Positions 57,597 through 64,000 of a stretch of 64,000 bases of DNA are shown here, in pieces. Numbering within the stretch: the first letter of the stretch is position 1; the number at the start of each line of letters is the position of its first letter. Source of the DNA: Calditrichales bacterium MX18-03. Its GTDB lineage: Bacteria; Bacillota; Clostridia; Lutisporales; Lutisporaceae. Where the stretch lies: positions 1,488,001-1,552,000 of the forward strand of contig JAJGRE010000001.1 in assembly GCA_021083345.1 (NCBI GenBank), given 5' to 3'. Position numbers and translations under genes: made by a program. The notes beneath the pieces are model-generated. The model was not told the DNA's origin, did no database searches, and saw only the letters and a program-made list of their open reading frames with translations.

Positions 57597-58115
57597 CTAA
57601 ATCCTCTCCACCTGTACAAACTCCAATTCAACCGGAGTCTCTCTGCCGAACATGGAGATCAGCACTTTGATCTTGTGCTTTTCATGATTGATTTCCTGTA
57701 TGATGCCTACGAAATTTTCGAAAGGACCGGAAATAACCCTGACATGATCTCTGACATTGGCATCCAGTTTGACAGGGGTTTTTTCAACTCCCAACGCCTT
57801 AACTTCCGCATCAGTAAGAGGCACAGGCTTGGATCCAGGTCCTACAAAACCGGTAACCCCTCTCGTATTTCTGACTACGTACCAAGACTCATCCGTCATC
57901 TGCATCTTGACAAGCACATAGCCCGGAAACACTTTTTTCTGGGTAATCTTTTTCTTCCCGTTTTTGATTTCGACCTGTTCTTCAATCGGCACTTTTACTT
58001 CGAAGATCACATCCTGCATGTTTCTGTTTTCAACGATCTTCTCAATATTTGCCTTAACCTTGTTTTCATATCCAGAGTAGGTATGCACGACATACCATCT
58101 GCCTCTTTCTTCCAT
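57597..58115 (-). CDS. nusG: Transcription termination/antitermination factor NusG
   Basis: 172 residues: NGN domain (GRWYVVHTYSGYENKVKANI, VFPGYVLVKMQMTDESWYVV, RNTRGVTGFVGPGSKPVPL) and C-terminal KOW domain (SGPFENFVGIIQEINHEKHK) that contacts S10. Binds RNA polymerase clamp and modulates pausing. Gap of 56 bp to secE. Confidence 0.97.
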   Translation of the reverse strand: MEERGRWYVVHTYSGYENKVKANIEKIVENRNMQDVIFEVKVPIEEQVEIKNGKKKITQKKVFPGYVLVKMQMTDESWYVVRNTRGVTGFVGPGSKPVPLTDAEVKALGVEKTPVKLDANVRDHVRVISGPFENFVGIIQEINHEKHKIKVLISMFGRETPVELEFVQVERI

Positions 58116-60622: not shown

Positions 60623-60846
60623 TACGTTTAAAACGGGATGACATAACCTATTTTATCTGATTGGCAATCAAGTTTCAATCGAATATTAATGGTACTTTTG
60701 GATAATCTCTCGACTGTTTTCGCTGTTTTTTTTAGCGTGCCATTGTTGGCTCATTTTTATTCTCCATTGTGCTTTAACCGCTATATGCCGCATTTCCATT
60801 TTGTTCTATTTTTTTCTGTTTCAACCTATATATATTGTCAAAACGG

Positions 60847-60875
60847 TTGACATCCTGCCGCTCATTGCATAGAAT
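60847..60875 (+). promoter_or_regulatory. Sigma-A promoter for the mutS2-like leader RNA
   Basis: TTGACA (60847-60852), 17-bp spacer, TAGAAT (60870-60875). Predicted start near 60882, giving a leader of about 318 nt before the MutS2-like start codon. Confidence 0.85.
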
Positions 60876-60907
60876 AAGACTGTACAATTGAAATAGGAGA
60901 ATGTAGT

Positions 60908-60934
60908 ATGTTGGAGCGTGTTCTTAGCGTATAA
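60908..60934 (+). CDS. Candidate 8-codon leader peptide
   Basis: ATG TTG GAG CGT GTT CTT AGC GTA TAA encodes M-L-E-R-V-L-S-V. AGGAG (60895-60899) sits eight bases upstream, an ideal spacing, about 26 nt from the predicted transcript start. The ORF covers the left arm of helix P1, and its stop codon lies in the left arm of P2, so a translating or stalled ribosome would block both helices. This is the layout of ribosome-sensing attenuators. No experimental support. Confidence 0.5.
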   Translation: MLERVLSV

Positions 60935-61086
60935 ACTGAATAGGATGTCTTAACCGCCGTTTTTTGATCAACTGCCTGCTGCCGCCGGTTTGCGGCAAAT
61001 GTTATCGTTTAGTAGGCTTGTTTTGTTGCGGTTAAGCTCAGTTTATGTTAAGAACACAGGCAACGATTACAGGGAACGCATATACT

Positions 61087-61110
61087 GCCGTGCTTTTTGC
61101 ACGGCTTTTC
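61087..61110 (+). terminator. First intrinsic terminator of the mutS2 leader
   Basis: Perfect 7-bp stem GCCGTGC/GCACGGC with T5 loop, followed by TTTTC. Confidence 0.88.
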
Positions 61111-61130
61111 TGATTATCCGTTCAATTGAA

Positions 61131-61168
61131 GCTGCGCTTGAATACCGTGTGTTCAGGCGCAGCTTTTT
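61131..61168 (+). terminator. Second intrinsic terminator of the mutS2 leader
   Basis: 12-bp stem (61131-61142 with 61152-61163, one T-G pair), 9-nt loop, then T5. It lies 31 bp upstream of the MutS2-like start, inside the leader, so reading the gene requires passing it. Confidence 0.88.
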
Positions 61169-61199
61169 GCATGATCACCAATTATGAGGAGGAACCAAA

Positions 61200-63152
61200 A
61201 TGAATCATCAAGCCATTAAACTTTTGGAATTTGATAAAATCAAGTCTCAACTCAAAGAATTTGCTTACTCAGCCCAAGGGAAAATCCTTGTTGAGAAACT
61301 GATGCCGTCAGTGGACATTCGTGTCATTGAAGCCTGGATGAAGGAGACGACTGAAGCGTGTGCCATACTGGAACGCAGTGCCAGCGTTCCGATACACAGC
61401 CTGACGGATATGGATACCGTTATTGGAAAGTTGGGTAAAGGGATCAGCCTGCAGCCCGACGATCTGACGGTTATCCTGGAGCTGCTCCGGGAAATCAGGA
61501 AGCTAAAGCGCTTCATGTCCGACAAGGAAGTCGTTGCCCCCACGGTCAGCAGCTATGCATTATCCCTTTTTGACTTGCAGGAGCTGTCTGAGGAAATAGA
61601 CCGCTGCATCCAGAACGGACGGGTGTCGGACAAGGCCAGCCCGCAGCTGGCGAAAACCCGAAAACAGCTGGCCATACTGGAGGATCGCATCAAGAGCAAG
61701 CTGGAAAACATGCTGCGTTCGGCTTCCTACAGCCGGTATCTGCAGGATTCCGTTATCAGCACGAGAAACGGCAGGTTCGTCATTCCCGTGAAAAAGGAGT
61801 ATCGGAAGCAGGTTGAAGGTACGGTCATGGACAGCTCGGCCAGCGGTTCCACCCTGTTTATCGAGCCGGCCGAAATATGCAGGCTGCAGGATGAATTGAA
61901 TCAGTGCAAAATAGCGGAAGAACAAGAAGAATACCGCATCCTGTCCCAGCTTACCGGGCTTGTGGAAGCCTCGCAAAGGGAGCTTTCCATTAATATGGAG
62001 GTCATGGCGCATTATGACTTCCTTTTTGCCAAAGCCAAATACAGCAGATCCATTGACGGCACTCCCGCGTTCTTTAATGACAGACAGCTTATCAGGCTCA
62101 CTGGGGCAAAGCATCCTTTGATCGGTAAGCAGGCCGTTCCACTGGACTTCCATATCGGTGATACGTACCGGACCCTGGTGATTACAGGTCCCAACACCGG
62201 CGGTAAGACAGTCTCCTTGAAGACTGTCGGATTATTGGCGCTGATGGCCCAGTGCGGGCTTCATATACCGGCTGCGCCTGGCAGTGAAATGACCGTCTTT
62301 ACGGATATTCTGGCAGACATCGGGGATGGGCAGAGCATAGAACAATCCCTCAGCACCTTTTCGTCCCACATTCGGAATATCATCAGCATTATGGCTTGTG
62401 CAGGCAGGAATACGCTGGTCATCATTGACGAGCTGGGTGCAGGGACGGACCCGGGTGAAGGCATGGGTCTGGCCATCTCCATTTTGGAAGCCATACACCG
62501 CAAGGGCGCAACATCCATCATTACGACACATTACAGCGAGATCAAATCGTATGCCTCACAGTGGGAAGGCTTTGCAAACGGCTGCATGGAATTTGATATC
62601 GATACTCTGCAGCCGCTTTACCGCCTGAAGATCGGTGCAGCCGGCGAAAGCAACGCTTTCCTCATTGCACTGAGGCTGGGCATGAGCAAAGCTGTCATTG
62701 AGCGGGCTCATGAGTATACCTACAAGGAAAAGAAGGATTATGACGTTTTTCATGGTATCGCTGTTTGCCGGCCAGAAAAGAATGATGCCGTTGCGATACA
62801 ACATGCCGAGCAGCTTATCAAAACAAAAAAAGCGGCAGAAGTCAGGAAAACCGTGGAGCAAGCGGCCAGAGAAAGCGCTTTCAAAGTGGGTGACTGCGTT
62901 TTTATCAGCAGTATGAACCGCACCGGAATCATCTGCGAGCCGGAAGACAGCAAGGGTGAAGTGGGCGTCATGGTGATGCGGAAAAAACTGAAAATCAACA
63001 GGAAGCGCCTTGCTCTCCATATTGAGGGAAAAGAGCTGTACCCGGAAAACTATGACTTTGATATCATTTTTGAATCCAAGGATAACCGGAAGAAGAGAAA
63101 AATCCTAAGCAAACGCCATGAGGAGGGTTTGACCATCGAACTGGAGAAGTGA
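61200..63152 (+). CDS. MutS2-family ATPase lacking the Smr nuclease domain
   Basis: 650 residues against about 780 for standard MutS2. The core (clamp/lever helices ~1-290, with SARNGRFVIPV-like STRNGRFVIPVKKEYR and SASGSTLFIEP) and ATPase are intact: Walker A TGPNTGGKTVSLKT, Walker B LVIIDELGAGTDPGEG, switch TTHYSEIKSYA. A coiled coil and a short KOW-like barrel (KVGDCVFISSMNRTGIICEP) follow; the chain then ends in a basic tail with no Smr domain. Bacillus MutS2 splits collided ribosomes, and Smr is the mRNA-cutting part; a splitting-only role is an inference. AGGAGG seven bases upstream. Confidence 0.87.
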   Translation: MNHQAIKLLEFDKIKSQLKEFAYSAQGKILVEKLMPSVDIRVIEAWMKETTEACAILERSASVPIHSLTDMDTVIGKLGKGISLQPDDLTVILELLREIRKLKRFMSDKEVVAPTVSSYALSLFDLQELSEEIDRCIQNGRVSDKASPQLAKTRKQLAILEDRIKSKLENMLRSASYSRYLQDSVISTRNGRFVIPVKKEYRKQVEGTVMDSSASGSTLFIEPAEICRLQDELNQCKIAEEQEEYRILSQLTGLVEASQRELSINMEVMAHYDFLFAKAKYSRSIDGTPAFFNDRQLIRLTGAKHPLIGKQAVPLDFHIGDTYRTLVITGPNTGGKTVSLKTVGLLALMAQCGLHIPAAPGSEMTVFTDILADIGDGQSIEQSLSTFSSHIRNIISIMACAGRNTLVIIDELGAGTDPGEGMGLAISILEAIHRKGATSIITTHYSEIKSYASQWEGFANGCMEFDIDTLQPLYRLKIGAAGESNAFLIALRLGMSKAVIERAHEYTYKEKKDYDVFHGIAVCRPEKNDAVAIQHAEQLIKTKKAAEVRKTVEQAARESAFKVGDCVFISSMNRTGIICEPEDSKGEVGVMVMRKKLKINRKRLALHIEGKELYPENYDFDIIFESKDNRKKRKILSKRHEEGLTIELEK

Positions 63153-63278: not shown

Positions 63279-64000
63279 ATGATCGGTTATGTGCTCCGGA
63301 ATCTGATCAACAATATGGCGCTCTTGATCATTATCGCTTACCTGATTACTCGGGTGAAGATGTTCAAAGAGCTGCTGACGGAAAATAAGAATACCCTCTA
63401 TGATAAAATTCTGATGGCTGTGATCTTCGGCTTCATCGGCATCCTGGCCACCTATACCGGCACAAACGTCAACGGCGCCATTGCCAATTCCAGGATCATC
63501 GGCGTCCTGGTCGGCGGCATCTTCGGCGGCCCCATTGTCGGTGTAGGGGCCGGTTTGATTGCCGGACTCCACCGCTGGGCTATCGATATCGGCGGCTTTA
63601 CCGCTTTCGCATGCGCGCTGTCCACCATCCTGGAAGGGATAATCGGAGGACTGGCTTCCAAATATGTAAAGAACCTCAGGAGCAATTGGATTCATGCTCT
63701 TGTACTGGGTATCATCGCGGAGCTCCTGCAGATGGGTATTATCCTGCTGATTGCAAAACCCTATGCAGCTGCCCTGGAGCTGGTGCGGATCATCTTTATC
63801 CCCATGGTGCTTTTCAACCCCGTTGGCATTGCCCTTTTTGTGGGATTGATCAACGGCATTTTCAGGGAACAGGAAAAGGAAGCCGCCATCAAGACACAGC
63901 TGGCGCTGCAAATTGCCGAAAAATGCCTGCCCTTTCTGAGGAATGGGCTGGCATCCCAAAAAGACATTCTGGAGGTGGCAAAAACCATCTACAAAATGTC
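63279..64000 (+). CDS. LytS/YehU-type sensor histidine kinase, 3' truncated
   Basis: Open to the window end; 240 codons visible. ATG at 63279 with GGGAGG six bases upstream. The first ~185 residues are the 5TM-LYT membrane module: several Gly-rich hydrophobic helices with NSRIIGVLVGGIFGGPIVGV, GLIAGLHRWAIDIGGFTAFA and LQMGIILLIAKP. A cytoplasmic GAF-like segment starts at IAEKCLPFLRNGLASQKDIL. The kinase domain should lie beyond the window. LytS-type kinases sense membrane state or small molecules (pyruvate in YpdA/BtsS) and signal to LytTR regulators; here the ligand is unknown. Confidence 0.87.
   Translation, partial: MIGYVLRNLINNMALLIIIAYLITRVKMFKELLTENKNTLYDKILMAVIFGFIGILATYTGTNVNGAIANSRIIGVLVGGIFGGPIVGVGAGLIAGLHRWAIDIGGFTAFACALSTILEGIIGGLASKYVKNLRSNWIHALVLGIIAELLQMGIILLIAKPYAAALELVRIIFIPMVLFNPVGIALFVGLINGIFREQEKEAAIKTQLALQIAEKCLPFLRNGLASQKDILEVAKTIYKM

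Follow-up and report, generated by a model that had tools for sequence, protein, structure and literature searches.

The RNA leader ahead of a MutS2-like gene in the window, as we call the whole 64,000-nt stretch of DNA that was analyzed, is very probably a ribosome-mediated transcription attenuator; no expression, stalling, or antibiotic data are available for it. Most likely it responds to translation inhibition, the inducer being inferred. The first-pass annotation had proposed an RNA that, on sensing translation stress, allows polymerase to reach the gene. Comparative evidence, computational and without induction data, supports the proposal: a conserved upstream open reading frame (uORF) paired in helix P1, compensatory changes in P1, tandem terminators, an antiterminator released when the uORF is masked, its fit to its own terminator, and the presence of the same leader on other ribosome-protection and resistance genes. 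The leader is real, conserved, and of attenuator anatomy, and a member of an apparently broad leader class. The attenuator mechanism is of a known kind; the type of target gene is new.

The features of the locus are given below. Both Shine–Dalgarno sequences, the extension helix, and the TTGTTT motif were read from the sequence, P2 from sequence and fold, the apical stem from folds, and the AAUUUnAUA element from the alignment to covariance model R2.

60847-60875, plus strand: promoter TTGACA-N17-TAGAAT, 11/12 consensus positions matched
~60882, plus strand: expected transcription start, placed from the promoter
60895-60899, plus strand: Shine–Dalgarno sequence AGGAG of the uORF, 8 nt ahead of its ATG
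60908-60934, plus strand: uORF MLERVLSV*, 8 codons (ATG TTG GAG CGT GTT CTT AGC GTA TAA)
60918-60926, plus strand: 5′ strand of P1 (anti-antiterminator), GTGTTCTTA, GUGUUCUUA; pairs with 61049-61057
60931-60939, plus strand: 5′ strand of the window-specific extension helix, ATAAACTGA, AUAAACUGA
60934-60942, plus strand: AAUUUnAUA element just past the uORF, window copy AACUGAAUA
60949-60957, plus strand: 5′ strand of P2, CTTAACCGC, CUUAACCGC
60974-61017, plus strand: apical stem GCCUGCU/AGUAGGC with two hairpins (three-way junction)
61018-61023, plus strand: TTGTTT directly past the apical stem, matching the pause motif TTNTTT (PMC12288461)
61028-61036, plus strand: 3′ strand of P2, GCGGTTAAG, GCGGUUAAG
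61038-61046, plus strand: 3′ strand of the window-specific extension helix, TCAGTTTAT, UCAGUUUAU
61049-61057, plus strand: 3′ strand of P1, alternatively part of the antiterminator, TAAGAACAC, UAAGAACAC
61049-61061, plus strand: 5′ strand of the antiterminator, predicted to pair with 61087-61099 once the uORF strand is masked
61087-61109, plus strand: terminator 1, GCCGUGC-UUUUU-GCACGGC-UUUU (stem 61087-61105 plus U tract)
61128-61168, plus strand: terminator 2 (also delimited as 61128-61167)
61186-61192, plus strand: Shine–Dalgarno sequence GAGGAGG of the MutS2-like gene
61200-63152, plus strand: MutS2-like gene, 650 aa, with MutS core, Walker A GPNTGGKT, Walker B DELGAGTD, and KOW

The gene product, annotated earlier as MutS2-like, is a MutS2 relative by its match to TIGR01069 (660.6 bits against a curated cut-off of 400, positions 2-519 of 790) but not a canonical MutS2: the alignment stopped before the SMR domain, which is absent from this paralogue. 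Set against the canonical MutS2 encoded in this genome, the window protein lacked the coiled-coil insert and the entire SMR domain; the Walker A, Walker B, and KOW residues aligned, and the C-terminus carried a clade-specific tail, LYPENYDFDIIFxSKxNRKKR. In Bacillus subtilis MutS2, strong binding to collided ribosomes depends on the SMR domain, and uS10 is bound by KOW; in the absence of SMR, KOW may be enough for partial activity (PMC10897456). The window protein shares with it the MutS core, ATPase, and KOW and differs in lacking the coiled-coil insert and SMR. We infer that it may be an ATPase that acts on ribosomes with no need for collision recognition and is made only upon ribosome stalling, by analogy to HflXr. 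A gene for a 5TM-5TMR_LYT (LytS-type) membrane sensor was located at 63279-63998, ~130 nt past the MutS2-like gene.

The strong promoter and the two tandem terminators described in the first-pass annotation were present (the terminators starting at 61087 and 61128), the three co-linear perfect 9-bp helices were found in both sequence and folds, and the three-way junction was seen in the predicted minimum-energy fold. For the 5′ strand of the extension helix (60931-60939), an alternative register pairs 60927-60931. The folding energy of 60882-61199 was −114.5 kcal/mol versus −85.0 ± 4.75 for shuffled sequences (z = −6.2), and 0/100 shuffles equaled it, which bears out the claim that such stacked pairing is unlikely by chance. 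Chance or unselected stem-loops, for which nothing speaks beyond the general frequency of hairpins and terminators, are thus a practically negligible explanation: the z-score, the match to an independent model, and conservation over two bacterial classes stand against them, and this conservation already refutes them. Not all of the described structure is conserved. Conservation covers P1, the plan of a long helix, the pause-like hairpin, and both terminators, but the three-way junction and the exact form of the second and third helices are peculiar to this genome, where the apical stem (60974-61017) occupies the place of the hairpin that precedes the pause-like motif in homologues.

DNA similarity search over 61 genomes gave no match besides the window itself; homologues, in Clostridia and Bacilli, were therefore reached through the protein. 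The nearer group comprised 36 leaders including that of the window, with 43–68% protein identity to the window protein. All 36 share one plan—a short uORF, P1, AAUUUnAUA, and a hairpin with a T-rich, pause-like motif after it—and two terminators lie between P1 and the gene in nearly all of them. In the homologous leaders, GTTCTTAAC pairs with GTTAAGAAC ~90–120 nt downstream. All 36 precede a MutS2 paralogue without the coiled-coil insert and SMR but with ATPase and KOW kept; the leader was absent from 18 canonical MutS2 genes of related genomes and from the canonical MutS2 of this genome. A clade of SMR-less MutS2-like genes at a greater distance (L038-L041, 43% identity) shows the same logic in another sequence: its uORF is longer (M-S-x-S-V-x-V-I-F-N), the codons TCTGTAAnGG in it pair with downstream CCTTACAGA, and a TTTATTT-type motif is again present. 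Its P1 uses other codons; this clade went undetected by R2 and was left out of the analysis.

A covariance search had been suggested as a check, and absence of covariation across homologues or an Rfam match to an unrelated RNA had been named as refutation. Model R2, built from 28 leaders with the window left out, found the window leader as the sole match in 64 kb (60908-61069, in register, 39.7 bits, E = 1.2e-5), its first position aligning to the uORF ATG. P1 covaries by compensatory changes (detailed below), and no Rfam family matched the leader: in the window, the scan returned above the gathering score just three tRNAs and an L10 leader elsewhere, and scans of the homologous leaders gave no family for this type. 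The ribosomal protein L10 leader (RF00557; 56183-56321, minus strand) lies ahead of rplJ, as expected.

Two elements recur outside P1. AAUUUnAUA was found just past the uORF in 94/106 leaders (≤1 mismatch) versus 6.8 expected from shuffles, and G-n-TT[A/G]TTT past the inner hairpin in 48/106 versus 4.6 expected. This second element fits TTNTTT, a motif for NusG-dependent pausing that is also functional when an RNA hairpin lies upstream (PMC12288461). The host NusG (gene at 57597-58115) has N-T at positions 83-84 in a context matching N81/T82 of B. subtilis NusG, which are pro-pausing (PMC12288461). A NusG pause at the leader hairpin and TTGTTT is our inference.

Whole-genome searches with covariance models R1 and R2, followed by inspection of the loci, placed the leader ahead of a MutS2-like gene in 45 of the 78 classified matches and ahead of BpsA-like genes (PF01861) in 18. 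It was also found ahead of GNAT acetyltransferases, an APH-type kinase, MFS transporters, multidrug-type ABC exporters (L169, L171, L173), and ABC-F genes. Two of the ABC-F genes score above the cut-off that NCBIfam sets for ribosomal-protection ABC-F, and one ABC-F leader (L155) comes from the window's own bacterial family. R2 E-values were 5e-11 to 6e-9 for the GNAT, BpsA, and APH leaders, 1e-6 for L155, and 6e-6 and 7e-5 for the MFS leaders. The tet(M) leader scored weakly (27.5 bits, E = 0.0042). Matches at E above ~1e-3 are near chance level over 349 genomes; therefore, tet(M), THUMP L146, L140, and L149 were judged by register and anatomy. One match (L179, E = 1e-3) was false, having no uORF, and reverse-strand matches of up to 29 bits, arising from the palindromic P1, were rejected.

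Several of these loci deserve separate mention. At the BpsA-like (branched-chain polyamine synthase) loci of Bacilli (L088 1501-1634 and 17 others), the uORF is often MSVCVLN*; no link of polyamine synthesis to ribosome stalling is obvious there. The three ABC exporter loci, from one genus, have the uORF MIKGVLK* and the leader before the exporter. A weak match (L157, 1506-1604) has the uORF MMLPAICFVE* and carries AATTTAATA and GGCTTGTTTTGATG; its small downstream product resembles an S4-domain protein.

The breadth of downstream genes bears on whether the leader could be a riboswitch or protein-binding leader, in which a ligand or the MutS2-like protein binds AAUUUnAUA or the U-rich internal region and controls P1. 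Both motifs are conserved beyond pairing needs; however, the same elements precede unrelated MutS2-like, BpsA, GNAT, ABC-F, MFS, ABC exporter, and tet(M) proteins, which speaks against feedback from a single protein or metabolite; the uORF is retained in every case, and TTNTTT fits a NusG pause. We consider such a leader unlikely. It is a very slim chance that the RNA is instead a stand-alone non-coding RNA of ~230 nt with the gene partly insulated by the tandem terminators: a terminated transcript is expected as the main product, and Rfam lists the tet(M) leader as an sRNA (RF02864), but in 77/78 classified matches a gene on the same strand follows the leader, the uORF has been conserved, and the antiterminator is matched to the terminator of its own leader. 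This alternative is unneeded, though not excluded.

Attenuation by ribosomes requires a short uORF with a Shine–Dalgarno sequence, a uORF strand held in a helix to be broken for induction, mutually exclusive antiterminator and terminator, and readthrough induced by ribosome stalling or antibiotics, the last being inferred here. The first requirement was met by MLERVLSV*, not named in the first-pass annotation, whose 3′ codons form the 5′ strand of P1; that it is translated is inferred from the sequence alone. A uORF was present in 36/36 homologous leaders, mostly of seven codons (M-S/L-x-x-V-L-N-stop), again with a motif like the Shine–Dalgarno sequence ahead of it. The R-L-R or R-Y-R motif of macrolide leader peptides was absent from both the window uORF and the homologous consensus. 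Codons 2–4 vary widely among homologues and V-L-N tracks P1 pairing; a dedicated arrest peptide, judged from these sequences, therefore seems unlikely, and we infer that, more likely, general inhibitors or inhibitors of initiation or early elongation stall the ribosome early in the uORF.

The leaders of ilv, leu, and his operons are amino-acid attenuators, and scarcity of charged Val, Leu, or Asn/Ser tRNA could by the same logic of uORF, P1, and terminator stall the ribosome here, all the more since V-L-N codons are near-universal in the uORF. This is distinctly improbable. Runs of regulatory codons are absent, V-L-N is explained by P1 pairing and alters with P1 (VHN, VLI, VLK, FLA, FFN), and the downstream genes are of ribosome-protection and resistance types, not of Val, Leu, Asn, or Ser biosynthesis.

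The second requirement was met by P1 with its compensatory changes. RNAalifold on a MAFFT alignment of the leaders predicted zero pairs because the inner helices differ in length and sequence; P1 was therefore tested alone, and the inner region was analyzed by per-sequence folding. All 36 leaders folded better than their own shuffles (mean z −4.2; −2.9 with the P1 strands removed). In the family alignment, 84.5% of P1 cells were paired, six pairs showed double changes, and the covariation score exceeded all 500 shuffles and all slid controls. Across gene classes, 21 distinct P1 versions had 95.2% of cells paired and double changes in 6/10 pairs; 16 double-change cells were counted versus 2.9 in shuffles, a value reached by 0/500. 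In this latter test, the 3′ register was chosen to maximize pairing, which biases toward the result, and the P1 core is so highly conserved that covariation rests on few variants. Compensatory pairs read from the sequences were GTTCATAAC/TTATGAAC, GTTCTTATC/GATAA(A)GAAC, TTCTTAGCTT/AAGCTAAGAA, and GTGTTTTTAA/TTAAAAACAC.

The third requirement was met computationally. The 5′ arm and loop of terminator 1 form the 3′ strand of the antiterminator. When the nascent window RNA was folded to 61099, at the apex of terminator 1, the antiterminator had a probability of 0.00 with P1 free to form and of 0.95 with the uORF strand masked. Masking in silico switched on the terminator 1 antiterminator in 31/35 leaders (four homologues failed), raising the expected antiterminator pairs from 1.8 to 9.7 over the 35. 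Antiterminators fitted their own terminators better than foreign ones, both by duplex energies (p = 5e-5 for terminator 1 and terminator 2 alike when all sequences are used; p = 1.4e-4 and 7.6e-4 for 17 and 16 spread representatives; p = 0.012 and 0.003 for the flank alone) and in folded RNA (10.6 versus 6.5 pairs, p = 2e-5); these permutation p-values are optimistic because the homologues are related. A weak antiterminator against terminator 2 had been suggested earlier; the pairing exists (GUGUUC 61149-61154 with GAACAC 61052-61057) and is weak (−6.7), but the main partner is terminator 1. In the window, the antiterminator (−10.5 kcal/mol) is weaker than the finished terminator 1 (−14.4 kcal/mol), and the full-length RNA folds with the terminators on; therefore, the decision must be kinetic, as is typical of known attenuators.

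In the attenuation mechanism that we propose, a ribosome would normally finish the uORF and leave, the 3′ end of the uORF would then pair with 61049-61057 to form P1, and terminators 1 and 2 would form, stopping a transcript of ~230–290 nt ahead of the gene. If a ribosome slows down or stalls on the uORF, the inferred signal, it would cover the 5′ strand of P1. The freed 61049-61061 could then base-pair with terminator 1, in its emerging 5′ arm and loop, and more weakly with terminator 2, so that polymerase would read into the MutS2-like gene. The hairpin followed by TTGTTT probably pauses polymerase, which would let translation catch up. Translation inhibitors as the natural inducer are likewise inferred.

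Since similar switches precede antibiotic-resistance genes elsewhere, the window MutS2 relative is probably a stress- or antibiotic-induced factor for ribosome splitting or rescue, both inducer and function being inferred. MutS2 is a known collision-response factor; a paralogue without the collision-sensing SMR domain behind a stall sensor suggests that the RNA has taken over sensing from the protein, which would make the protein a ribosome rescuer that is inducible. Whether one RNA architecture (uORF–P1, AAUUUnAUA, a hairpin with a TTNTTT-type pause, and an antiterminator copying the terminator arm) serves as a widespread modular stall sensor of Bacillota over resistance and rescue genes, including a new SMR-less MutS2 class, is evenly balanced in our judgment. 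If it does, the sensor controls tet(M), ABC-F, and the SMR-less MutS2 family among others, and SMR-less MutS2 represents a new class of inducible antibiotic-tolerance factors, parallel to HflXr and ARE-ABCFs. It is possibly an unrecognized intrinsic antibiotic-tolerance gene in many relatives of Bacillus, Paenibacillus, and Clostridia. The shared leader is also a sequence handle for finding further genes of unknown role in translation stress that are induced by stalling (BpsA, GNATs, exporters). We failed to find the target gene, the RNA sequence elements, or this breadth in Rfam or open-access papers; neither this leader nor SMR-less MutS2 as a resistance factor is described in the latter.

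Among known systems, the leader of tet(M) (Tn916), a known transcription attenuator (PMC5418344), was compared in detail. It corresponds to Rfam RF02864, "Enterococcus sRNA 30" or "sRNA_0030" (L144 3127-3291, minus strand); the RF02864 model gave no match to 60700-61250 at E up to 10. In tet(M), the uORF tail GGTATTCTTAAATAA pairs with TTTAAGAATACC, CAATTTGATAG stands past the uORF, GGGCTTAGTTTTTTGTACC is present, and masking the uORF strand in silico frees GAATACCTTTATCA to pair with TGATAAAAGTATT of the terminator. It differs in its gene, its single terminator, and a uORF ending in RQGILK. Despite the weak R2 score, every element occurs in order and the same in-silico switch operates; hence, there is good support for the prediction that the window leader functions as the tet(M) attenuator does, and homology of the two is plausible but not proven. 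The ABC exporter leaders recall the regulation of B. subtilis bmrCD, which involves another RNA. The ABC-F genes vmlR and cplR likewise have a uORF in an anti-antiterminator, an antiterminator, and a terminator, and vmlR has a NusG TTNTTT pause (PMC9226507, PMC10201436); their uORFs are of three codons (MIN, MR[I/M]) versus 7–8 in the window-type leaders, and theirs also hide the main Shine–Dalgarno sequence (PMC9226507, PMC10201436). HflXr, a resistance paralogue of HflX, is inducible and has a uORF attenuator ahead of its gene (PMC6310831). Its leader rli80 (PMC6310831) and the uORFC-6-1 motif upstream of hflX (PMC8632094) differ in an RLR-type peptide, a GTPase (HflX) in place of the MutS2 ATPase, and a different RNA, but they provide the closest functional analogy: a factor that splits ribosomes has a resistance paralogue, and this paralogue is under a uORF attenuator.
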